Shown here piece after piece: positions 4,444 through 22,244 of a stretch of DNA of 22,244 bases (position 1 is the stretch's first letter; every line of letters starts with the position of its first letter). Source of the DNA: a virus; the IMG/VR virus record IMGVR_UViG_3300048102_000063, positions 1 through 22,244 of that record; one strand, 5' to 3'. The notes beneath the pieces are model-generated. The model had not been told where the DNA came from, did no database searches, and saw only the letters and a program-made list of their open reading frames with translations. The position numbers and the translations under genes were made by a program.

Positions 4444-6300
4444 ATGCCGCTACAAAAGCTCCAGTTTCGTCCCGGGATTGTACGGGATACGACCGACTAC
4501 ACTAACGAAGGTGGGTGGAGAGACGGCGATAAAATACGTTTCCGTATGGGTTTCCCCGAAACTATAGGCGGCTGGACTAGGTTAACCTCTGAGGCGCTGG
4601 ACGGCGCTTGCCGATTCTTGCATAGTTGGACTTCCTTAGCTGGTACGACGTACATCGGCGCAGGTACAAATATGAAGCTGTACGTGGTAGAGGGTTCGGA
4701 GCCATCTGACATCACGCCGATTAGAGCGACCACTTCTGCGGGGGATGTAACCTTTGCAGCTACAAACGGCTCTACAACGATCACTGTTTCGGACACTTCT
4801 AACGGGGTAGTACTGAACGACTTCGTTACATTCTCAGGCGCAGTAGGTTTGGGCGGAAACATCACCGCAGCGGTACTCAACCAAGAGTATCAAGTTACTT
4901 CTGTTGTGGACGCCAACTCTTACACGATTGAATCTGCGGTGGCCGCAAACGCTTCGGACACTGGTAATGGCGGTGCAGCGGTTGTAGGTGCGTATCAGAT
5001 TAACGTAGGTCTGGACTCATCCGCTGCTGGTAGTGGTTGGAGTGCTGGCTCTTGGAGCCGGGGTACTTGGGGTTCAGCGGCTGACGTTTCTGTTCCTAGT
5101 ACGAGTTTACGTCTGTGGTCCATGGACAATTTCGGGGAAGACTTACTGGCCAACGTACGTGGTGGCGGTATATATTATTGGGACTCTTCTTCAGGTACGG
5201 GTACACGCGCCGTAGATATAACTACTCTAAGTGGAAACAACCAACCTCAAGTTGCTAATATTGTTCTTGTCTCTGAACGCGATCGACACGTTATTGCATT
5301 TGGCTGCGACCCAGAGGCCGATCCCGGCGTCTTAGACCCACTAACGATCCGCTTTTCTAGCCAAGAGAGCTTTACAGATTGGGCCGCTACAGACGTTAAC
5401 ACCGCTGGTGAGTTGCGAGTCGGTACAGGTTCTGAGATAATCGCTGCAGTACAAACTAAACAACAAGTGATAGTGTTTACAGACCGATCCGTATCTTCAA
5501 TGCAGTTTATTGGTGCGCCGTTTACCTTCGGCCTATCTGAAGTCTCTACAAACACTTCGATCGTGGGACAGAACGCCGCCGTTGCTTTTGGTGATGCCGT
5601 GTACTGGATGGGCGACGACGTATTCTACAAATACGATGGTAACGTGCAGCTTATCCCCTGTCCTGTAGAAGAGTACATATTTGCGGATATGAACATCGCG
5701 CAGAGGGCTAAAGTTACCGCGGCGAGTAACAGCAAGTTTAACGAGATTTGGTGGTTTTACCCTTCCGCTGATAGCACCACTAACGACAGCTACGTCGTGT
5801 TCAACTACGCCGAAAACGTATGGTATTATGGCACTATGGCGCGCACTGCTTGGGACGAAGGCGGCGTGTCAGGGTATTCGATCGCTGCGTCTACTGATGG
5901 ATATGTCTATTTCCACGAGAACGGCGTATCTGACGGCAGCACAAATCCACCGAGCGCTATAAGCAGCTACATAGAGTCCAGCGCCATCGACATCGGGGAC
6001 GGCGATCAGTTTATGTTCGTAAGCCGTATTTTGCCTGATCTGACGTTCCGCAACTCTCCGGGCAACCCAGTGGCTACCTTTTCGGTAAGCGCGCGTAACT
6101 TCCCCGGTGCCAACTTTGACCAGACTAATTCTGGTACTGCGGTCCGCACGGCTACCGCACCTGTGGAGCAGTTTACAGATCAGTTGTTCTTCCGACTGCG
6201 AGGGCGCTCTATGTCGTTAAAAGTTGAGTCGAACGACGTCAATACCGAGTGGCGGCTAGGCACACCGCGCGCAGATATGCGTACGGATGGGAGGCGTTAA
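4444..6300 (+). CDS. packaged DNA stabilisation / tail hub protein (P22 gp10-like)
   Basis: The 618-residue protein has a GGAGGT ribosome site at 4433-4438. Its start (LQFRPGIVRDTTDYTNEGGW, then DGDKIRFRMGFPETIGGW) is the signature of podovirus stabilisation proteins related to P22 gp10, which plug the portal after packaging and form part of the tail hub. The rest is beta-rich with repeated Trp/Tyr motifs, consistent with a propeller-like fold (for example SLRLWSMDNFGEDLL, IYYWDSSSG, VIVFTDRSVSSMQFIG, IWWFYPSA, VWYYGTMARTAW). Length is somewhat above P22 gp10. It overlaps the next start in a TAATG. It would act in the virion at the head-tail junction. The homology is recognised from motifs, so a general tail-tube or hub label is the fallback. 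Confidence 0.72.
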   Translation: MPLQKLQFRPGIVRDTTDYTNEGGWRDGDKIRFRMGFPETIGGWTRLTSEALDGACRFLHSWTSLAGTTYIGAGTNMKLYVVEGSEPSDITPIRATTSAGDVTFAATNGSTTITVSDTSNGVVLNDFVTFSGAVGLGGNITAAVLNQEYQVTSVVDANSYTIESAVAANASDTGNGGAAVVGAYQINVGLDSSAAGSGWSAGSWSRGTWGSAADVSVPSTSLRLWSMDNFGEDLLANVRGGGIYYWDSSSGTGTRAVDITTLSGNNQPQVANIVLVSERDRHVIAFGCDPEADPGVLDPLTIRFSSQESFTDWAATDVNTAGELRVGTGSEIIAAVQTKQQVIVFTDRSVSSMQFIGAPFTFGLSEVSTNTSIVGQNAAVAFGDAVYWMGDDVFYKYDGNVQLIPCPVEEYIFADMNIAQRAKVTAASNSKFNEIWWFYPSADSTTNDSYVVFNYAENVWYYGTMARTAWDEGGVSGYSIAASTDGYVYFHENGVSDGSTNPPSAISSYIESSAIDIGDGDQFMFVSRILPDLTFRNSPGNPVATFSVSARNFPGANFDQTNSGTAVRTATAPVEQFTDQLFFRLRGRSMSLKVESNDVNTEWRLGTPRADMRTDGRR

Positions 6301-10510: not shown

Positions 10511-10893
10511 TCGGTCAACTTTTAGGTCCAGTAACCAGCATTGTCGGTGGCATTGTCCAAGGCAAGATGGAACAGAAGGCCGCTGAAACAAAAGCCAAGG
10601 TCGCCAAGGCGGAAGCCCAAGCGCAGATAATGCTGTCACAGGCTACGTCAGAGGCCGACTGGGAAAAGGTCATGGCCGAAGGTTCGCGCGATAGCTGGAA
10701 AGATGAATGGCTTACGATCCTGTTCTCGGTGCCGCTGGTGCTTGCCTTTTGCGGTGAGTGGGGTCGTGATATAGTCGCCGATGGTTTCACTGCACTCAAT
10801 GCCATGCCCGATTACTATCGCTACACCTTGGGAGCCATCGTCAGCGCCAGCTTCGGTATCCGGGGTGCAACTAAATTCTTTGGGAAGAAGTGA
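10507..10893 (+). CDS. holin, GTA-type 3TM family
   Basis: The 128-residue protein begins with a short hydrophobic segment (IGQLLGPVTSIVGGIV), continues with an Ala/Lys/Glu helix (KAAETKAKVAKAEAQAQIM), and then has a conserved-looking block SRDSWKDEWLTILFSVPLVL. A last membrane segment (YRYTLGAIVSASFGIRGA) ends in a basic tail (TKFFGKK). The S-x-K-D-E-x-x-T before a membrane helix and the Y-x-Y-x-L-G-x-I-V-x-x-x-F-G-x-R end are typical of the holins associated with gene-transfer-agent release and marine phages. It would make inner-membrane holes that let the endolysin out. It stands one gene ahead of the endolysin, as usual. Confidence 0.75.
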   Translation: MIGQLLGPVTSIVGGIVQGKMEQKAAETKAKVAKAEAQAQIMLSQATSEADWEKVMAEGSRDSWKDEWLTILFSVPLVLAFCGEWGRDIVADGFTALNAMPDYYRYTLGAIVSASFGIRGATKFFGKK

Positions 10894-10894
10894 T

Positions 10895-11734
10895 ATGACA
10901 ATTACACCTGATGAACTACGGGCAATGATCCCGACAAATGACGAAGTAGATACTTGGTGCGAGGAACTGAACAAGGCACTGCCTAAGTACGGCATCAACA
11001 CGCCTCAGCGCATTGCAAGTTTTATCTCGCAGTGTGCGCACGAGAGCCGGGACTTTACCGCGCTTGAAGAGAACCTCAACTACTCTGAGGGTGCGCTGAA
11101 CCGCGTGTTTGGGCGTTATTTTGGTGAAGGTAAGCGCAACGCTGCCGAATATGCCCGCAACCCAGAGAAGATCGCCAACTATGTATACATGGACGAGTAC
11201 CGTTCCAAGCGCGGTGCATTAGGGAATACGCAGCCGGGTGATGGTTGGCGCTTCCGGGGCAAAGGGCTCAAGCAACTTACTGGGCGTAACAACGTCACGG
11301 GTTTTGCCAACGATTACGACATGACACCAGAAGAAGCATCTGAGTGGTTGGAGACAAAAGAAGGTGCATTGGCATCGGCTTTGTGGTTCTGGGATACAAA
11401 CAACCTAAATGCTATTGCTGATACCGGTGACGTAAAGGCTACAACCAAGCGAATTAACGGCGGTGATATCGGTCTGGCAGATCGACAATCACGATACAAC
11501 GTGGCAATGCAGGCTCTTACTGGCGATATACCACCCCGTGCCGCCGTATCCAAAACCCTGCGTGTTGGCAGCAAGGGAAGCGACGTTAAACAGATGCAGG
11601 CTAAACTTGGCATTGTCGCTGACGGTGTATTCGGTCCGGGTACAGCCAAGGCGGTTAAAGCGTGGCAGGGAGCAAATGGCCTGACCCCTGACGGAGTTAT
11701 TGGCCCTAAGAGCCTAGCGATTATGTTTGCCTGA
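10895..11734 (+). CDS. endolysin: glycoside hydrolase family 19 with C-terminal peptidoglycan-binding domain
   Basis: The ATG at 10895 was chosen because it starts a normal GH19 N-terminus; an in-frame start at 10781 would run through the holin gene. The 279-residue enzyme cuts the peptidoglycan sugar chain. The GH19 part (about 1-205) shows FISQCAHESRDF with Glu50 and EENLNYS with Glu59, the usual pair of catalytic acids in phage GH19 lysins. It also shows FRGKGLKQLTGRNN and ALWFWDTNNLN. The C-terminus (LRVGSKGSDVKQMQAKLG, DGVFGPGTAKAVKAWQ, DGVIGPKSL) is a PG_binding_1 domain. No signal peptide is seen, so release would depend on the holin. Its stop overlaps the next start as TGATG. Confidence 0.93.
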   Translation: MTITPDELRAMIPTNDEVDTWCEELNKALPKYGINTPQRIASFISQCAHESRDFTALEENLNYSEGALNRVFGRYFGEGKRNAAEYARNPEKIANYVYMDEYRSKRGALGNTQPGDGWRFRGKGLKQLTGRNNVTGFANDYDMTPEEASEWLETKEGALASALWFWDTNNLNAIADTGDVKATTKRINGGDIGLADRQSRYNVAMQALTGDIPPRAAVSKTLRVGSKGSDVKQMQAKLGIVADGVFGPGTAKAVKAWQGANGLTPDGVIGPKSLAIMFA

Positions 11735-12192
11735 TGCCGATACGCCCCATAGAACCTAAAGACGTACCGGGAGTTATCGACCTCGGGTTCTGGATGCACC
11801 AAGAGAGTGTATATCGGCATTTTAACTACGACCCAAACAAGTGTGGTCGGATGGTCTACCACTTTATGACTAACCCCGACACACACTTCGCCTACGTCGG
11901 CACCCATAACGGTACCCTTAATAGTGTACTTCTTGGGTCTATCGGCGAGCATTATTTTGGTACGGACTTGATAGCCTCCGACACACTGTGGTATGTCTCC
12001 CCACAAAGCAGAGGTTCCCGAGTAGGACTGCAGCTGTTACGAGCCTTCGAAAAGTGGGCAAAAGAGCGTAACGCTGCGGAGATTTACATGGGCATTTCGA
12101 GTGGTCTGAGCGCCGATAAGACCGGAGCCATGCTACAGAAGCTAGGGTATGATGTTGTGGGTGGAAATTATAAGCAACGTGTAGTACAATAG
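11734..12192 (+). CDS. GNAT-family N-acetyltransferase
   Basis: The 152-residue protein starts in a TGATG overlap with the endolysin. It opens with the usual GNAT strand (MPIRPIEPKDVPGVIDLG). Its acetyl-CoA loop reads WYVSPQSRGSRVGLQLLRAF, followed by the EKWAKERNAAEIYMG helix-strand and a late KLGYDVVGGNYKQ. In the canonical Q/R-x-x-G-x-G/A loop, one Gly is replaced by Arg here; this variant is common in phage GNATs. Such enzymes acetylate a small molecule or protein amine. Substrate is unknown; candidates are a host protein or a cell-wall-linked amine, given the position after lysis genes. It would act in the cytoplasm. Confidence 0.82.
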   Translation: MPIRPIEPKDVPGVIDLGFWMHQESVYRHFNYDPNKCGRMVYHFMTNPDTHFAYVGTHNGTLNSVLLGSIGEHYFGTDLIASDTLWYVSPQSRGSRVGLQLLRAFEKWAKERNAAEIYMGISSGLSADKTGAMLQKLGYDVVGGNYKQRVVQ

Positions 12193-13444: not shown

Positions 13445-14500
13445 ATGTGTGGTGGTAGCAAGACAGTAAACAATACGACGACGCAGCAGAGTGCAGCTCA
13501 GGCTGACTTACCTGCATGGGCGAAGCCGTATTTCGAGCGGAACATTGCACGAGCAGAGGCGGAGTTTGGTAAGCCTTACGAAGCCTACACTGGTGAGCGC
13601 CTTGCAGGGACCGACCCTAATGTAGCTAGATCGCGCGAGATGGTAGAAGGCCTTGTTGGCACCGGCACCCCCGGACTGGGTACAGCGCAAGATTACGTTA
13701 CTGCAGGTATGGATCGGGCCACTGAGCTTGGACAATACGGCGGAGGTGATTTCTCTACATTTGGATACTCCGATCCGGCAATGTTTACTGGTGAAAACGT
13801 ATCTCAATACATGTCTCCGTATCAGCAGTTGGTTACAGAGCAGGAGAAACAGGCGGCGATTACAGACTTTAACCGTCTGCAGGGCGCTCGTGACACTAAG
13901 GCAGTTCAAGCCGGTGCGTTTGGCGGTTCGCGCCAAGCAGTGCAGCAAGGTCTCGCGGAAGAACAGCTGCTAGGTCAGCTGGCAGGAATCCAAGCCAAAG
14001 GCTCCCAGAGCGCATTTGAAGCCGCCGCCAAACAGTTCGGTGCCGATAGAGCCGCACAGATGACTGCAGAGCAGCGCCGCGCCGCTGAACTTGGACGAGT
14101 ACAAACAGGCCAAGAAGCAGCCAGCCAGTTCGGAGCAGGTCAAGGACTTGCAGCCCTCAAAACTGGGACCGCGCTTGGTACCGAGCTATCTCGCTTGGGT
14201 CAGTTGGAACGGCAGACGGGTATCCAAGACACCCAGCTGCTTGAAGGCGTTGGCAGAGCTGCACAGGCTGAAGAGCAGGCCAGACTCGATCTGGATTACC
14301 AGAACTTCCTTGAGCAGCAGGGTTACACCCGCGAGCAAATCGGTAACATGACAGGTATTCTCTCGGGCATGCCTATTGCTGCAACCGGTACAACGACTAC
14401 TCAGGGTACGACTACCACCCCGACACAGCAGCCCGGTGCGTTCCAACAAGCGGTTGGTGCCGGACTTTCTGGACTATCTCTATATAAGGCGTTCAGCTGA
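13445..14500 (+). CDS. putative internal virion protein, T7 gp14-like by position
   Basis: The 351-residue protein has AAGGAGC at 13432-13438 and starts MCGGSKT, echoing the previous gene. Residues of about 20-60 (LPAWAKPYFERNIARAEAEF, YTGERLAG) are followed by long Ala/Gln/Gly-rich helices (GAFGGSRQAVQQGLAEEQLL, AAKQFGADRAAQMTAEQRR). A Thr-rich linker (TTTTQGTTTTPTQQ) and a short hydrophobic end (GAGLSGLSLYKAF) close it. The composition, Met-Cys start and position before two much larger proteins match the internal core proteins that T7-like phages eject to form a channel. It is longer than T7 gp14 (196 residues). No enzyme motif. Homology is not proved from sequence reading. Confidence 0.65.
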   Translation: MCGGSKTVNNTTTQQSAAQADLPAWAKPYFERNIARAEAEFGKPYEAYTGERLAGTDPNVARSREMVEGLVGTGTPGLGTAQDYVTAGMDRATELGQYGGGDFSTFGYSDPAMFTGENVSQYMSPYQQLVTEQEKQAAITDFNRLQGARDTKAVQAGAFGGSRQAVQQGLAEEQLLGQLAGIQAKGSQSAFEAAAKQFGADRAAQMTAEQRRAAELGRVQTGQEAASQFGAGQGLAALKTGTALGTELSRLGQLERQTGIQDTQLLEGVGRAAQAEEQARLDLDYQNFLEQQGYTREQIGNMTGILSGMPIAATGTTTTQGTTTTPTQQPGAFQQAVGAGLSGLSLYKAFS

Positions 14501-16773
14501 TGCTTAATATGATCGACACCCAAGACAAGCTCAAAAACTTTTCTGAGCAACAACTTATCCAAGAGATGCAGCAGCCTTCTGGGTCCGCACCGCAGTTCAT
14601 GGTTTTGGGTGAGATCGAGCGCCGCAAGCGTATGCGCGCAGATATGCAAAAACAAGAAGGCCTGATGCAGCCTACGGTCGCTCAGGAAGCTGTCTCGGCG
14701 GCGGGTGTACCCCAGCAGGGTATCGCACAAGTTGCGCAGTCCCTCGCGCCAAAGACTGACATGACACAGAACACCGGGGTACCTAACACTCAGGCAGCAG
14801 GTCTACCTGCACAGCCGAATCAGCCACAGCGTATGGCCGACGGTGGTGTTTTACGCCTCGCCCCCGGTGGTGGCCTGTCCGGCGGGACTATCAGTGCTAT
14901 CGCAAACTTGAAGGTAAAGCGTCCTGACATTTACGAAGAATATAAAGACGACCCAGAAGCGCTGGCGATGGCCGCAGAATACTTTCAAAACGTAGCCGAT
15001 ACCCCGGAAAGAACTGGGCTAGAGTCCTTAGAGGCTCCATATGTAGACCCTTACGGGCCTCAAGGGCTGGCGCAGCGTACCGCAGCGGCGGAAGTAAGAA
15101 ATCAGGCTCGTATGGCATCTGAAGTCGCACAGCAAAGAGAAATCGACCGCATGTTGGAGATCAACGCTCCTTTAGGTAGTGGACGACGCGGTGCACCACT
15201 AGACGCGGCAGCTCGCCGCCGTATAGCCGAAGAAGACATGGCTATGGGTATGCCTGTGCCTAGAGATGATTTCCGCACGTTCCCCGTTACTGTGCCGCAG
15301 GCAAAAGCTGATCCAACCTACGCAGAAGATGAGTTCTTTTTTAACGCCGGGATGTTCGATAGGGTTGCTCCAGAAAATGTAGCAGTGCAGCCTCGTAGAT
15401 CGGAGTTGTCAGCGATATCCGCTGCAGAGGACTTAGGTCAGCGTATTGCTCAAGAAGACGCAGCGATGGCGATGCCTATCCCACAGAGTGACGCTGCAGC
15501 AGCTAGAGTTAATCGTCGCGGGGCAGACGCTCCAGCGGCTCAAGGTTTAGCGCAGTTTATAGAAGAAAATAGGTCTGCTATTCCCGGCTATAACCTCCCC
15601 GGCCCTTCAACACCTTATGTAATAGACCCTGATGCAGCTGTAAGAGCCGGTCGGTCCTTGTCATTGCAAGACCAACTGCTAGGCTTAGGCTTCACGGGCG
15701 GAGATATTGATCCGTCACCATTTGGTATAGCAGCGACAGCTGCATCTAAACCCTTGTCCTATGATGCCTTAGTAGCTAAGGCTAAGGCCGGATCGCCAGT
15801 AACTGAATCGGATTTAGTTGCTTCGGTAGAAGCAGGACTTTTAAATGACAATCAAGCGGCGGACATAAACGCCATGATTGACGACTCTAGCTATATCCCA
15901 AGCGCCCAAGAACAACGTATCTCTAACCTTGAGCGCACAAACAGGATGCCTCCAAGCGGGCCTACAAACCCAGACCTTCTAGGTCCAAAAATTATTCGCA
16001 ATGTTGGAGACTACGCCGCAGGAGTGTTTGGTGGTCGTACAATAGCAGAGCAAGATGCCGTAGATGCTGAACGTGCAGAAGAGACGGCGGCGTTTGCCCG
16101 AGCAAAGGCATTAGAGGTTCCAGTAGGCTCTATGGTAGAGCGCACATCTGATGCACAGGAAGAGTTTGACCAGCGCCCCGATACACAGGACGTAAAGCCC
16201 GCAGCGGAGCAGAAAAAGATCGCTGCCGCCATGAAAACCGTTACTGACCCAGCTGCGATGCCTCCTGCAGTAAAACCGCGTACTGGTACGCGTACTGGCA
16301 AGAAGAGCGGTATTTCGGCTGAAAAGAGCAAGATGGACCAAGACAAGTGGTTGGCTCTGGCGCAGGCTGGCTTTACGTTGATGAGCACTGGTGATTTCGG
16401 CAAAGCAGGGTCAGCGGGCCTAGCGGCGCTTCGAGAGTCTGAAAAAGCCGATCGTGAAGAGCGTAAGCTGGGTGCTGAATTGATGCTTAGAGAAGCACAG
16501 CTGGCTGCGGCCAATCGTGCGCCTGCGGCGAAAGCCATACCTGCGGCGTACCTTACAAGTTTGCAAAGGGATAAAGAAGACATACAATCGAAGTTGGCAA
16601 GCCTTAGACCGCCAGAAGAAGGCGGTCTTTTCAGCAGCGGGTCCGACCCCGATGCGGCGGCACGTACACGGCTCCAAGCTGAGTTGGAGGTAGTTAACGC
16701 GCGGATAAATCGAATGTATAGTCAATATGGTCTTGGTGCTCCTGCTCCTAGTAGCCGCCGCAAGGTAATCTAA
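14500..16773 (+). CDS. putative internal virion protein, T7 gp15-like by position and size
   Basis: The 757-residue protein starts in a TGATG overlap and is close in length to T7 gp15 (747). It opens with a helix (DKLKNFSEQQLIQEMQ, LGEIERRKRMRADMQ) and has MADGGVLRLAPGGGLSGG at 112-129, a motif common in marine phage ejection proteins. A duplicated block, RIAEEDMAMGMPVP at 241-254 and RIAQEDAAMAMPIP at 315-328, is 74 residues apart. The C-terminal third carries LALAQAGFTLMSTG, GSAGLAALRESEKADREERK and a final coiled coil (QRDKEDIQSKLASLR). It is Ala, Gln and Pro rich and has no membrane segment or catalytic motif. It is probably packaged in the head. Confidence 0.65.
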   Translation: MLNMIDTQDKLKNFSEQQLIQEMQQPSGSAPQFMVLGEIERRKRMRADMQKQEGLMQPTVAQEAVSAAGVPQQGIAQVAQSLAPKTDMTQNTGVPNTQAAGLPAQPNQPQRMADGGVLRLAPGGGLSGGTISAIANLKVKRPDIYEEYKDDPEALAMAAEYFQNVADTPERTGLESLEAPYVDPYGPQGLAQRTAAAEVRNQARMASEVAQQREIDRMLEINAPLGSGRRGAPLDAAARRRIAEEDMAMGMPVPRDDFRTFPVTVPQAKADPTYAEDEFFFNAGMFDRVAPENVAVQPRRSELSAISAAEDLGQRIAQEDAAMAMPIPQSDAAAARVNRRGADAPAAQGLAQFIEENRSAIPGYNLPGPSTPYVIDPDAAVRAGRSLSLQDQLLGLGFTGGDIDPSPFGIAATAASKPLSYDALVAKAKAGSPVTESDLVASVEAGLLNDNQAADINAMIDDSSYIPSAQEQRISNLERTNRMPPSGPTNPDLLGPKIIRNVGDYAAGVFGGRTIAEQDAVDAERAEETAAFARAKALEVPVGSMVERTSDAQEEFDQRPDTQDVKPAAEQKKIAAAMKTVTDPAAMPPAVKPRTGTRTGKKSGISAEKSKMDQDKWLALAQAGFTLMSTGDFGKAGSAGLAALRESEKADREERKLGAELMLREAQLAAANRAPAAKAIPAAYLTSLQRDKEDIQSKLASLRPPEEGGLFSSGSDPDAAARTRLQAELEVVNARINRMYSQYGLGAPAPSSRRKVI

Positions 16774-16791
16774 TTTACAAGAAGGTGATTC

Positions 16792-19700
16792 ATGGGCGTT
16801 TATCAATACGACGATCCTAAAACCGGGCAAGGATATGACCTGCGTATTGTTGGAGACGTTCCAACAGAGGAAGAGTTTGCTAGACTAGAGGGCCAAATCC
16901 GGCAGGATAGAACCGCGTTTCTTGAAGACTACGAGAAACGGTTCGGTACCGAGATAGAGTTTGACGATGGCACTGCTCTTGGTCGTGGTTTTGGTCGTGG
17001 TACGCAGCAAATCAAGCAAGCTGTCGGTGAAACAGTCGGCACTATTGGGGAGCAGACTGGTCTTGGGTTCCTTGCGAATTATGGTCAAGGTGTAGAAGAA
17101 CGCGCCGGGCAAGAGCTAGGGCGCTTATCTTTAACCCAACCTGAACGCATGCAGTCTACTGATGTCGATAGTATTGGCTCGGCGTTGACTTACGCGGGTG
17201 AACTTGTTGGTGAGCAAATACCACAACTCGGTCTGGGTCTCGGCGCTGCTGTCACTGCTCCTGTTCTAGCCGGTGCTACAGGTGTAGCTGCTCCGTTCCT
17301 TATTGGTGCTGGCGCTGCCGGTGTCGTAACTGCGCCGATCCTGTTTGGTAACAACATCCAACGGCAGGAAGACGAAGTCGCAGCGGGCAAAAAAGATCGA
17401 GTTGATGTGAGCGATGCGCTCGTCGCTACTTTCGGCCAAGCGACACTCGAAGGTGTAGCTGACAAGTTGTTGCTAGGTGGTGTTCTTAAACCCATCGGCA
17501 AGTCCATATTTACCCGCACAATATCCCGTGCCGGTGGCGGTGCTACTTCTGAAGGACTAACTGAAGTCGGTCAGCAAATGCTGGAGCGGTCACAAGCTGG
17601 CCTGCCTATCGACAGCGAAGACGCTATTGCGGAATATCGTGAAGCTGCCATTGCAGGTGGTCTGATCGGTGGTGGTACACGCTCTACTATTGGCGCATTT
17701 GGCGACAGCCCTGCGGATGTTACGCCCACTACCACGAAAGCGAAAGAAGAAGCTACTGTTGAACCTACCACGAAAGCGAAAGAAGAAACTACGGTTGAAC
17801 CTACTCCGGTGGCAGATGAAACTACGGTTGAACCTACTCCGGTGGCAGATGAAACTACTGTTGAACCTACTCCGGTGGCGGAAGAAGCTGCTGCACCTGC
17901 CCAGACGGCAGAAGAGATTGCTGTCGAGGCCGAAACCGCTGCAGAGCCCGAGGTTGAAGCTGCAAAGCCCACCACCGGGCAGGGCACCCAACAAAAGTTC
18001 GATCAGGCTGCAGCCGAGTTCCGTGCAAAACGAACAGTCACTAAAGAGATGCTCGACGAGATCGGCGTTTCTAGGACAGCGGCGTTACGTAAACGGATCA
18101 CTGGGTTAGACGTTACTGATGATGCGGTGAAAACCGATCTTCTCAAATATGCAGATAACCCGAACCCGAAAGTGAAGGCAAAAGCGGACAAGATAAAAGC
18201 GGGTATCTCGGCGTTGCTAGGAGACACTGATGCTACAGGATTGGGAACAGGAACTGAAACTGAACTTACCGCAGTTGGAACAGGCGCTGAAGGTAGTGGA
18301 CTTAGCGTGGAGCAGCTCGAACGAGTTAGAAGTGCAGCTAGAGATACCCGAGAGCCTGCAACACCTGACGAGGTTCCAGTGGGAGGAAGTGTGCCACCTG
18401 TTGTCGTACCTGCAGTATCAGCAGGAGCGGAGCCCGATACACTAGAAGATGTATCCCCGGAAGCAGTTGCAGATCTCACGCAAGAAGTCGATGCAATCGT
18501 CGCCGAGCCGGTCACACCAGTACAAGTCCCTGCTATGGAGCAAAACGCGATACCCGGCCAAGTCACAGGTGTAGCGCAACAAGTTATTCCTGCACCCGTA
18601 GCCCCTGCACCGCGCGCTGCACCATTAATCGGCGCGTCTCTACCACAAGCCGATTTGCAAGCTGTCGAGGCTCAACGAGACGCCGCTGCACAAGCACAAA
18701 TCGAGCGTACGTTTGAGAGCAATCGAGGTAAACAGCCTGAAGTACGTGAGTATCACGACACGCAGTTGGACCCGCGGTCTGCTCCTGAAGTAACCACTGC
18801 AGTGGACAAGGAAGGCGTTGTCGAGCTACTCAACACAAAAGACGCTGACCTCGACGATACTGGAAAAGCTGCCAAGCTGTACTTCAAACGCTTCCGTCGC
18901 CCTGTAGATGCCCTCGCCGAAATCGGCATGATTGCGGTTAACGGCCCTACGCAAAGCGTCAAGAAAAACTACACACCCAAAGAGTTCGCTTTCTACAAGG
19001 GCATGACACAGCCTTCGGCGATGAACGCACGTCGTTGGGTACACGCCAACATGTCTGACAGCGCCATCCAAGAGATGATCCGTGCGCGCCGTGTAGCTAA
19101 CCGCGACACTAGCAAGTTTAACCCGTCCGATGCCTACATTGGTGTGGTTAAGGCCGCTAAGTCCATTCAGCAAAAAGAGGATAACGCCCTCAAGAACCAG
19201 CTGAACCGCTTCCTTGCGTCTCCAGAAGTAAACTATCAAGCCCCTGCGGAGCCGGATCAATCTTTACGCGCTGAAGCTACAGGACAACTTGTTGGCGAGC
19301 GCATCACTGGGCCTGTGACTAAGTCGTTTAAGCCGATAAAGGGTCAGACTGCGCTCGAGTCTTTTTTAGCGGGAATAGATTTTAAACGGCGTAAAGTCCG
19401 CAGTAACGAAACGGTTGCGGACGACACATATACCTATACTGACAAAGAAGGTAACGTGTATGCCTACGAGGATACGCGAGCCGAGGGGAAACTACTTACA
19501 AAAGTAGACGCACAAGAGTTCTACGACGACCTATTGTACAGCCAGAATGAGCTAGGCTTCTTGCTCATCGACCCCGTGCATGGTCTGGACATGGCTATAC
19601 TGCCTAGTATCCGCAACGCTCTACAACGTGGCGACTTGCAGTTTGCTCTCAACGCTATTGCGGCCACAAGCCAAGTAGACCGTATCCGAGAGATTGCTGC

Positions 19701-22244
19701 CAAGCTGGCCAGAGTTGTCGGCACTACTAAAGTGCAGGTGATGGACGATATCTCCCCCGTAGCAGGGCGCACTGCTGCTGGCTTATTCGAGCCCGATACA
19801 AATACGATTTACCTTGACGCTAACAACGGCATGAACGTGCATACTGTTTTGCACGAGATGGCCCACGCAGCTACCTCGGCGTCTTTGGCAAACCCAGCCT
19901 CACCGCAAACCAAACAGTTACAAGGCTTGTTGAACGCAGTGCGCGCTCAATTCGGCGAAGTATACGGCACTCGCAATCTCGACGAGTTTGTTGCCGAAGC
20001 CTTTAGTAATCCGCAGTTCCAGAGTGCGTTAGCGTTCCTCAAGACTGATGGTGGTAGGGTATCTGGCTGGGACAAATTTACTACGGCGGTGCGCAACATT
20101 GTGCGCAAGATTATGGGTATGCAGCCGAAAAAGCTAAACAGCGCGCTTGACGAGGTAGACCGTATTGTCAACGGCATGCTAACGCCGTCCCCCGCTACAC
20201 GAGCAGCACCTTCGATGATGCTACTGTCTGCCACTAAAGCCGGAGCAAACAAACTAGCCCAGAGCGCCGCTAATCTTGCTCCAGAGACCTCGGCTAAAGT
20301 CGCGGACCTAGCGGATGTTGTTTACAATGAAGGCGTATCGCCGAAAGCTAGAAGTTTTGCGCTGGACACGCTGCCTGTAAACATCTTGACTGATATGGCC
20401 AAAAGCAAAATCCCGTTTGCGGAAGAGCTTAACCTACTTATCAAACAGCAGAGCGGTGCGCTTCGTAAAAAGTCTGACGTGCTCGACTCCATCTTGCGGA
20501 ACTTCCATAAGTGGCAACGCAAGAACCCTGAGATGACTGCTATCCTCAACAACATAATCCCGCAAAGTACCTACCTGAAGGTTGACCCGTCGAGAACGGA
20601 TGCTGCGTACCTGAAAACTATTCGGGACGATGCAGAACGCTCCCCGGAGTATGATAAGTTGCGGGCGGAATTCCTAAAACTGGATGAGAAGGGACAAGAC
20701 TTCTACAAGCAGATGCGGAACTACTTTCAAGATACGTATGACGATATCATCGCTGCGTTAGAGGCCCGTTTGGAAGCCACGATTTCAGACCCAGCACTGC
20801 GGCAGAACGCTTTTGAATCGCTCAGAAAGATTTTGCAGAAGGATTCTGGGGTTATCCGTCCGTACTTCCCACTTATGCGTAAGGGTAAATATCGACTGGC
20901 GTACAACTTTATCGACGAAGACGGGCGTTCTGAGCGGGCTGTAGAGTATTTCCCTACATTGCGTAAGGCAGAGCAGGCCAGCGAGATGGTGCTTGAGTAC
21001 AACAAACCTCAAGGCGATACGTTTGACTCTGGCATAGAGCTTACAACATCTTCGCAAACTATGAGCTTCGATAAAGTGCCTAGCAGTGGGTTCATCCGTG
21101 ATATTCTGAAGTCGGTCGAGTTTAACGAACAGGAGTTCAAGACTAACGAGGGCTACAAGAAGGTAATGCAAGACCTTGTTGACTTGTCATTAGACGCAAT
21201 GCCCGAGCGTTCGTTCCTGCAGAACCTACGCCGTCGTAAGGGTGTTCGAGGGTTTATTGGGGATGTAACGCCAACAGGCATGGGGGGCATGGAATTCGAT
21301 GCCTACACTATGATGAAAGAAAAGGGGCGTGATCTTAACAGGCAGCTGGTGCAAATGAAGTCTGCAGCGGAGATCGAGAAGTTCCGAGCAAAGCTGAAAC
21401 CGTACAAAGAGAACCCAAGCACCGCTATGATGGCCAACAAGCTGGATAAAATTTCTGGCTTTGCCTCTAGCCCTAATGTGCCGCAATACTCGCAAGTCGT
21501 GAACAGCTTGGGTTTCGGGTTTACAATGGGTCTAAACTTCTCGTCCGCAGCGATCACCTTTTTCGACGTTGCCATGAGTGCCATGCCCGTACTCGCGGGT
21601 TCACACGGTATTCGTAATACTGGCAAAGCATTTGGGTCCGCTACTAAATTGTTTGCGGGAGCGCCTAGCAAACGCACGGTTATGGTCACAGGCCCAGAAG
21701 GTCAGCCGGTAGAGCAAGAAATAGACATGGGTGTAGCTGGAAAATCTATCTCCAATTACGACCTAAACAACTTGCCAGAGATGTTGCGCAATGTCCGTGC
21801 AGATATACTTATCTCTATGGGTATCGACCAAGGACAGTTCAATCAGTCCATGGTGCAGGAAGACTTAGAAGTTGGGCGTAGCGCCCCCATGGAGACGGTA
21901 AACAAGTACTCCAGCTTCATGTTCCACCACTCGGAACGGTTCAACCGTGAGACAACGCTCACAGCTGCCTACATGCTAGAGGTTCAAAATCTGCAGCGTA
22001 AGAAAGGTCAGCTATCCGAGCAGGATTATCGCGCAGCGGCGCAGAAAGCGATTGACAGCACGGAGTTTACTCTAGGCTCTACCGCAGCGGCGGGGCGTCC
22101 GATTGTAGCTCAAAGTGGTATTGGTAACATCCTGTTCCTCTTCAAACGCTTCGCGGTCAGTAAATACTACATGATGGCCAAGCTGGCGAAAGAGGCGGCT
22201 AACGACCCAGACCCAGAAGTAAGGAAAGCAGCTCGTAAGGGCGG
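16792..22244 (+). CDS. giant virion protein with zinc metallopeptidase motif (3' partial)
   Basis: The ATG at 16792 follows AAGGTG at 16782-16787. The frame stays open for 1,817 codons to the window edge, so the C-terminus is missing. The N-terminal part includes a Gly/Ala-rich hydrophobic stretch (about 144-185) that could insert in a membrane. A repetitive Thr/Glu/Pro linker lies near 314-365. Residues 1021-1025 (HEMAH in TVLHEMAHAAT) are a zinc-protease site, with the likely third ligand in DEFVAEAFSNPQF (1064 onward; Glu1069). Then come a charged helical region, RPYFPLMRKGKYRLAY, and hydrophobic helices (GFGFTMGLNFSSAAITFFD). This layout fits phage polyvalent/ejection megaproteins. It occupies the position of T7 gp16, whose enzyme is a transglycosylase. 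The peptidase target is unknown. Confidence 0.85.
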   Translation, partial: MGVYQYDDPKTGQGYDLRIVGDVPTEEEFARLEGQIRQDRTAFLEDYEKRFGTEIEFDDGTALGRGFGRGTQQIKQAVGETVGTIGEQTGLGFLANYGQGVEERAGQELGRLSLTQPERMQSTDVDSIGSALTYAGELVGEQIPQLGLGLGAAVTAPVLAGATGVAAPFLIGAGAAGVVTAPILFGNNIQRQEDEVAAGKKDRVDVSDALVATFGQATLEGVADKLLLGGVLKPIGKSIFTRTISRAGGGATSEGLTEVGQQMLERSQAGLPIDSEDAIAEYREAAIAGGLIGGGTRSTIGAFGDSPADVTPTTTKAKEEATVEPTTKAKEETTVEPTPVADETTVEPTPVADETTVEPTPVAEEAAAPAQTAEEIAVEAETAAEPEVEAAKPTTGQGTQQKFDQAAAEFRAKRTVTKEMLDEIGVSRTAALRKRITGLDVTDDAVKTDLLKYADNPNPKVKAKADKIKAGISALLGDTDATGLGTGTETELTAVGTGAEGSGLSVEQLERVRSAARDTREPATPDEVPVGGSVPPVVVPAVSAGAEPDTLEDVSPEAVADLTQEVDAIVAEPVTPVQVPAMEQNAIPGQVTGVAQQVIPAPVAPAPRAAPLIGASLPQADLQAVEAQRDAAAQAQIERTFESNRGKQPEVREYHDTQLDPRSAPEVTTAVDKEGVVELLNTKDADLDDTGKAAKLYFKRFRRPVDALAEIGMIAVNGPTQSVKKNYTPKEFAFYKGMTQPSAMNARRWVHANMSDSAIQEMIRARRVANRDTSKFNPSDAYIGVVKAAKSIQQKEDNALKNQLNRFLASPEVNYQAPAEPDQSLRAEATGQLVGERITGPVTKSFKPIKGQTALESFLAGIDFKRRKVRSNETVADDTYTYTDKEGNVYAYEDTRAEGKLLTKVDAQEFYDDLLYSQNELGFLLIDPVHGLDMAILPSIRNALQRGDLQFALNAIAATSQVDRIREIAAKLARVVGTTKVQVMDDISPVAGRTAAGLFEPDTNTIYLDANNGMNVHTVLHEMAHAATSASLANPASPQTKQLQGLLNAVRAQFGEVYGTRNLDEFVAEAFSNPQFQSALAFLKTDGGRVSGWDKFTTAVRNIVRKIMGMQPKKLNSALDEVDRIVNGMLTPSPATRAAPSMMLLSATKAGANKLAQSAANLAPETSAKVADLADVVYNEGVSPKARSFALDTLPVNILTDMAKSKIPFAEELNLLIKQQSGALRKKSDVLDSILRNFHKWQRKNPEMTAILNNIIPQSTYLKVDPSRTDAAYLKTIRDDAERSPEYDKLRAEFLKLDEKGQDFYKQMRNYFQDTYDDIIAALEARLEATISDPALRQNAFESLRKILQKDSGVIRPYFPLMRKGKYRLAYNFIDEDGRSERAVEYFPTLRKAEQASEMVLEYNKPQGDTFDSGIELTTSSQTMSFDKVPSSGFIRDILKSVEFNEQEFKTNEGYKKVMQDLVDLSLDAMPERSFLQNLRRRKGVRGFIGDVTPTGMGGMEFDAYTMMKEKGRDLNRQLVQMKSAAEIEKFRAKLKPYKENPSTAMMANKLDKISGFASSPNVPQYSQVVNSLGFGFTMGLNFSSAAITFFDVAMSAMPVLAGSHGIRNTGKAFGSATKLFAGAPSKRTVMVTGPEGQPVEQEIDMGVAGKSISNYDLNNLPEMLRNVRADILISMGIDQGQFNQSMVQEDLEVGRSAPMETVNKYSSFMFHHSERFNRETTLTAAYMLEVQNLQRKKGQLSEQDYRAAAQKAIDSTEFTLGSTAAAGRPIVAQSGIGNILFLFKRFAVSKYYMMAKLAKEAANDPDPEVRKAARKG
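17731..17886 (+). repeat. tandem repeats in the linker of the giant protein (36-bp then 33-bp period)
   Basis: A 21-base block encoding TTKAKEE occurs at 17731-17751 and 17767-17787, a 36-base period. Then a 33-base unit encoding TTVEPTPVADE occurs at 17788-17820 and 17821-17853 with identical bases, and a third at 17854-17886 that differs slightly. The unit encodes an acidic, proline-containing hinge. Perfect identity of two units suggests recent slippage duplication, so copy number may vary between relatives. Confidence 0.9.

Follow-up and report, generated by a model that had tools for sequence, protein, structure and literature searches.

We found that the largest protein encoded in the analyzed window, a giant standing last in a predicted three-gene ejection cassette, carries a domain that sequence comparison and structure modeling support as a genuine zincin-type metallopeptidase, with putative catalysis and zinc binding. 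With moderate confidence we regard this giant as an ejected protein of the gp16/N4-vRNAP type whose zincin would cut proteins at or after entry. The window is a linear IMG/VR virus record of 22,244 bases, likely a fragment. Its features are compiled in Table 1.

Table 1. Features of the window that bear on the cassette and on its giant third protein
Feature	Position in window	Strand	Basis or remark
618-aa protein	4444-6300		PHROG 3287
First cassette protein, 351 aa	13445..14500	+	PHROG 4287 'DNA ejection protein', E 1.4e-21
Second cassette protein, 757 aa	14500..16773	+	without known family
Third cassette protein (giant), 1,817 aa or more	16792..22244	+	open at contig end
Conserved N-terminal region of giant, aa 1-305	16792..17706	+	PHROG 6958 virion structural protein, 1.9e-10 at aa 52-341; alignment
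Hydrophobic Gly/Ala-rich segment, aa 142-189	17215..17358	+	Kyte-Doolittle scan; possible membrane segment
Variable Ala/Thr/Glu/Pro-rich linker, aa 306-590	17707..18561	+	composition; identity 0.19-0.46 per 50-residue bin
Conserved helical region, aa 640-800	18709..19191	+	conservation; helices in AF2 model
Zincin-like metallopeptidase domain (predicted), aa about 929-1129	19576..20178	+	AF2, VIA-align, BFVD, hhalign
HEMAH zinc site (putative), aa 1021-1025	19852..19866	+	occurs once in giant
E1065, probable third zinc ligand	19984..19986	+	family-invariant; same aligned position in 19 other-phage domains
LPD39 (PF18858), aa 1185-1333	20344..20790	+	5.5e-15, 56 bits, cut-off 27
PLxRFG/tail-700 (NF032893), aa 1357-1816, cut by contig end	20860..22239	+	5.7e-44, 150.6 bits, cut-off 100

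The cassette and its genomic surroundings

An earlier note on this DNA had described three ORFs of these places and sizes as an ejection-type layout. All three are present, and from the PHROG 4287 family of the first protein together with synteny we infer that they encode a podovirus ejection cassette, as the note had proposed; the three proteins are probably injected along with the phage DNA. The phages MinM2, DSL-LC04 and HTVC027P have the cassette at the corresponding place and likewise end it with the giant, and hhalign paired the first protein with its counterparts there at 99.8%, 98.8% and 95.9%, respectively, while it showed no similarity to T7 gp14, P22 gp7, phiKMV gp35 or N4 gp52. The second protein sits in the position of T7 gp15 and N4 gp51. 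No family was found for it among the Pfam, PHROG and NCBIfam models, and with the MinM2 counterpart it has its N-terminal 59 columns in common (86%) and no further shared stretch. In MinM2, a Synechococcus phage, the third cassette gene (L018:15886-24297) encodes a protein of 2,803 aa that is annotated RelA/SpoT and contains LPD38, a weak partial ART-PolyVal match and two HExxH sites; the contents of the third slot thus vary among related cassettes.

The earlier note had drawn a parallel to T7 by gene order and protein size. The order, with the largest protein last, is indeed that of T7 gp14-gp15-gp16, but the agreement in size is loose: the proteins range from 275 to 682, from 609 to 1,027 and from 2,069 to 2,465 aa within the family, the last range being that of complete giants, and the window copy lacks the C-terminal end. 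T7 as the closest model was not supported. No direct sequence similarity was found between the cassette proteins and T7 gp14/15/16 or P22 gp7/20/16 (direct hhalign of the giant against T7 gp16 gave 0.1-0.2%), and the cassette layout resembles that of N4 (gp52-gp51-gp50) more than that of T7. The 618-aa protein upstream of the cassette belongs to the stabilisation type known from P22 gp10 and LUZ24, and among its relatives are the 'stabilization' proteins of phage DSL-LC04 and of phages of the LUZ24 type. A related contig of 59.6 kb (G002) encodes a terminase, a portal (PHROG 1216), a capsid protein, an SU10-type adaptor, tail proteins and a GH19 endolysin, followed by the same three cassette genes. 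Because of the PHROG 3287 protein and the SU10-type adaptor in this relative, we read the gene content as suggesting a short-tailed phage close in kind to P22, LUZ24 and SU10 and not a T7 relative. In relatives extending past the giant the next gene lies on the opposite strand, from which it follows that the giant closes the structural gene block.

Several other genes of the window were recognized as well. At its beginning (3-758, +) part of a tail fibre is encoded, which carries an S74 intramolecular chaperone (PF13884, 1.9e-16) in its C-terminal region. A tryptophan-halogenase-like protein of 407 aa (1687-2910, +; PF04820, 8.4e-27) is encoded amid tail genes, with a counterpart at a similar place in a related contig (L096:7948-9153, 1.7e-34). 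The endolysin (10781-11734, +; PHROG 181, 9.2e-68) has a C-terminal peptidoglycan-binding domain (7e-12), and directly downstream of it a small GNAT acetyltransferase (11734-12192) was found, which stays beside the ejection cassette in close relatives.

The giant protein and its zincin-like domain

From N- to C-terminus the giant consists of a hydrophobic N-terminus, the variable linker, the helical region, the zincin, LPD39 and the PLxRFG 'tail-700' region, which scores 263-296 bits in complete relatives. Its BLAST relatives in known phages are large 'DarB-like' polyvalent proteins, which are marked by LPD39 and PLxRFG, and the giant itself has one trait of polyvalent proteins, an LPD-type domain in a large late-region protein that is the last of the structural block. 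Polyvalent proteins also combine at least two disparate activities; in the giant the zincin is the one recognized enzyme, LPD39 having been described as 'potentially enzymatic' at most (PMC5512222). At E<=1 we found no RNA polymerase match in the giant (PHROG 2206 or other polymerase family), and searching the PDB with a profile of the N-terminal region returned nothing. Weak Pfam matches to DUF6782 (0.006, below cut-off), HEAT and YscX were not used.

The HExxH zinc site that the earlier note had reported in the largest protein has a chance expectation of 0.004 in the giant. Across 45 relatives, whose zincin regions go down to 36% identity, the residues H1021, E1022, H1025, E1065 and E1069 are invariant; the domain was carried by 55 loci in our scans, and HExxH is kept in 47 of the 47 non-redundant family members bearing the site. 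All of these residues except E1069, which is not widely shared outside the family, are also common to 19 further domains of other phages. The signature across families reads LHExxHAxT, followed by an E(F/L) pair 40-81 residues downstream, and for this reason E1065 is the probable third zinc ligand. No bacterial relatives of the zincin appeared in the genome-contig scan.

In zincins of this kind HExxH lies on a helix and a conserved Glu on the next C-terminal helix, preceded by an N-terminal helix and a three-stranded sheet (PMC5512222). Structure prediction, which the earlier note had named as a check, reproduced this arrangement: AlphaFold2, run with the 45-row family alignment, gave the element order of zincins (helix, three-strand sheet, HExxH helix, Glu-bearing helix) with pLDDT values mostly of 70-88 across the domain, HExxH being placed on model helix 377-392 and E1065 on model helix 424-433. 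The best VIA-align match of the predicted domain was the C1 region of the N4 vRNAP (gp50, residues 2124-2367; 171 aligned, with a Z of 6.5 that is within the tool's warning range), and the top 25 rows were all zincins. Among predicted viral structures (BFVD, searched with Foldseek) it matched a phiKMV-like core protein of 1,337 aa (3.8e-6), an 'Internal protein D' (7e-5), a vRNAP (1e-3), several polyvalent proteins and an LT_GEWL protein. In a plain Foldseek search of the PDB, neither the zincin model nor the C-terminal model had a significant hit. For the latter, VIA-align gave T7 gp16 (9jyy chain I, Z 5.6) and PhiM1 (Z 4.7), matches that are only suggestive; N4 C2 was absent from the list, and membrane-transporter and other helical rows were treated as noise.

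Relationship to N4, phiKMV-type, T7 and polyvalent proteins

In hhalign comparisons the zincin matched phiKMV-type gp37 (99.1%, 8e-19), polyvalent proteins (98.9%) and N4-type C1 (95.1%, 3e-8), but neither T7 gp16 nor P22 gp16. A bare HExxH was not counted as evidence of kinship: the HERLH at residue 559 of T7 gp16 (L076:6596-10552) does not align with the zincin family, misses the flanking signature and is probably due to chance. The zincin profile also reached the PDB chain 9sfn_G, 'Internal virion protein' (9.6e-4, alignment A5), which has the same motif and the same length as phiKMV gp37 (1,337 aa). We observed the zincin to be conserved in phiKMV-type gp16 proteins (phiKMV gp37 at L077:7567-11580, as well as L072, L073, L090 and L092). 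Their annotation is frequently 'internal virion protein with endolysin domain'; of the three tested, from phiKMV, ErraM and Axy09, none was matched by a murein-hydrolase model of Pfam.

Downstream of the zincin the comparison with gp37 scored 47.2, compared to a maximum of 27.5 in 60 column shuffles and 24.1 for the reversed profile, and the C-terminal half reached 46% hhalign probability to the gp37 type. The alignment of phiKMV-type gp37 with T7 gp16 (96.7%) in turn runs the length of the protein and sets the zincin against a gap. Judged from these profiles, the giant may be distantly related to the gp16 type, though indirectly, through the phiKMV-type gp37 bridge. Like the giant, gp37 is the third of three internal virion proteins; it differs in its length of 1,280-1,525 aa (five examined) and in having no LPD39 or PLxRFG match. 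T7 gp16 has a transglycosylase but no zincin homologue, and the window giant shows the reverse.

The N4 proteins gp52, gp51 and gp50 (Schitoviridae) have been shown to be ejection proteins, and the structure paper names the C1 region and notes its HExxH (PMC12633501). As here, the third protein of the N4 cassette is a giant with a hydrophobic N-terminal part, whose C1 domain is homologous to the zincin in profile. The window giant differs in showing no RNA polymerase match and in having LPD39 and PLxRFG instead. The tail-700 and LPD39 region is shared with the 'DarB-like' polyvalent proteins of Serratia phage Parlo, Klebsiella phage SopranoGao, Erwinia phage PEp14 and Rhizobium phage RHph_TM29, of which those of Parlo and RHph_TM29 also have a zincin belonging to this family. 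The Parlo protein has in addition SLT, helicase and methyltransferase domains that the window giant lacks. No profile similarity was found between the C-terminal half of the giant and N4 C2.

Zincins in polyvalent proteins and in the N4 vRNAP are already known (PMC5512222, PMC8472413, PMC12633501). For the zincin of phiKMV-type gp37 we found no earlier report in the open-access literature, and the main text of PMC5512222 mentions neither phiKMV nor internal virion proteins. This link is the most useful by-product of our analysis.

Possible roles of the zincin

We infer the packaging, topology, activity and substrate of the giant in the following way. The first two proteins would help to form a path through the envelope. 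The giant would be packaged, ejected last and threaded domain by domain through the tail, with its N-terminus holding it at the inner membrane. The zincin, which stands between the hydrophobic N-terminal region and the LPD39-PLxRFG region, would then come to lie on the cytoplasmic side and cut either the giant and its partners, which would release domains, or a host protein. Self, partner and host targets have all been raised for polyvalent proteins (Iyer et al., PMC5512222); for none of the domains of this zincin family, that of N4 included, did we find proteolysis demonstrated. The processing of partners and the attack on host proteins, both named by the earlier note, are live options, whereas the cutting of cross-links, its other suggestion, fared worst.

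Self- or partner-processing, in which functional pieces would be freed from the giant or from its two partners by zincin cuts made either in the head or once entry has taken place, has in our estimate somewhat less than an even chance. Such processing has been proposed for polyvalent proteins generally, DdrB of phage P1 is processed before packaging (PMC5512222), and the long variable linkers could hold cut sites. However, the N4 vRNAP, whose domain is homologous, enters the virion unprocessed (PMC5512222), and this speaks against a cut before packaging. Recombinant gp50 was not degraded (PMC12633501), and no part of the giant is less conserved than the linker; an unsystematic look showed no conserved cut site. 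We consider it a comparably serious possibility, again a little short of even, that the zincin is an injected effector and cuts a host protein, such as a defence, transcription or membrane factor, in the first minutes. The domain is retained in third ejection proteins of otherwise different content (vRNAP, gp37, polyvalent), and its position C-terminal to the hydrophobic segment would be on the cytoplasmic side by the T7 topology (PMC8954989). The zincin was not found in T7 and P22 gp16 and should therefore be dispensable for ejection itself, which is in line with an effector. On the other side, PADLOC gave no match, and the ART or RNase partner domains of other polyvalent proteins were not detected in the giant.

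It is improbable that the domain is catalytically dead and retained for structure or packaging. The N4 region holding it is needed for encapsidation (PMC5512222), but the catalytic and ligand positions are all invariant across remote families. Dead enzymes usually lose some catalytic positions.

The earlier note had seen no transglycosylase motif in the largest protein. Murein-hydrolase models of Pfam, PHROG and NCBIfam matched none of the three cassette proteins at E<=1, and neither the giant nor the related contigs that we searched showed an SLT or phage-lysozyme domain. The endolysin was the sole murein hydrolase recognized among the proteins tested. These results would fit a wall peptidase that cuts peptide cross-links, but the note's wording of a metallopeptidase 'instead of' a transglycosylase is misleading. 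Both occur in the single chain of Parlo (SLT at 44-150, HExxH at 1195), and in the phiKMV record a lysozyme motif, which Pfam did not confirm, is annotated in gp36 beside the zincin-bearing gp37. In T7 gp16 the transglycosylase (residues 1-156) precedes the first membrane region, and the core behind it is assigned to the cytoplasm (PMC8954989), whereas the zincin is C-terminal to the hydrophobic segment here (at a distance of about 740 residues), in gp37 and in N4 gp50. Zincin and transglycosylase occupy different slots, and we take the zincin as an addition to a familiar theme and not as a substitute for T7's wall-cutting enzyme. Given this co-occurrence and the gap in T7 gp16, and with an LT_GEWL protein matched by fold and N4 ejection proteins that likewise have no murein hydrolase (PMC12633501), a wall peptidase in place of the T7 transglycosylase is the least likely role and highly improbable.

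For the HExxH domain of the N4 vRNAP we found no assigned role. In the uncultured family described here the giant has neither a polymerase match nor a murein hydrolase, yet its zincin is strictly conserved, and the peptidase is therefore separable from polymerase and murein-hydrolase functions. The target of an ejected zincin thereby becomes a question that is testable in laboratory phages, and a connection of 'polyvalent' proteins to the ejection protein of the gp16 type is suggested. A more far-reaching and rather unlikely reading is that N4-type, phiKMV-type and window-family podoviruses, which are otherwise unrelated, have retained one ejected effector peptidase in their third ejection proteins, directed at a single class of host or membrane proteins in the first moments of infection. 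If it were true, 'internal core' proteins that are annotated solely as murein hydrolases would also be injected proteases.
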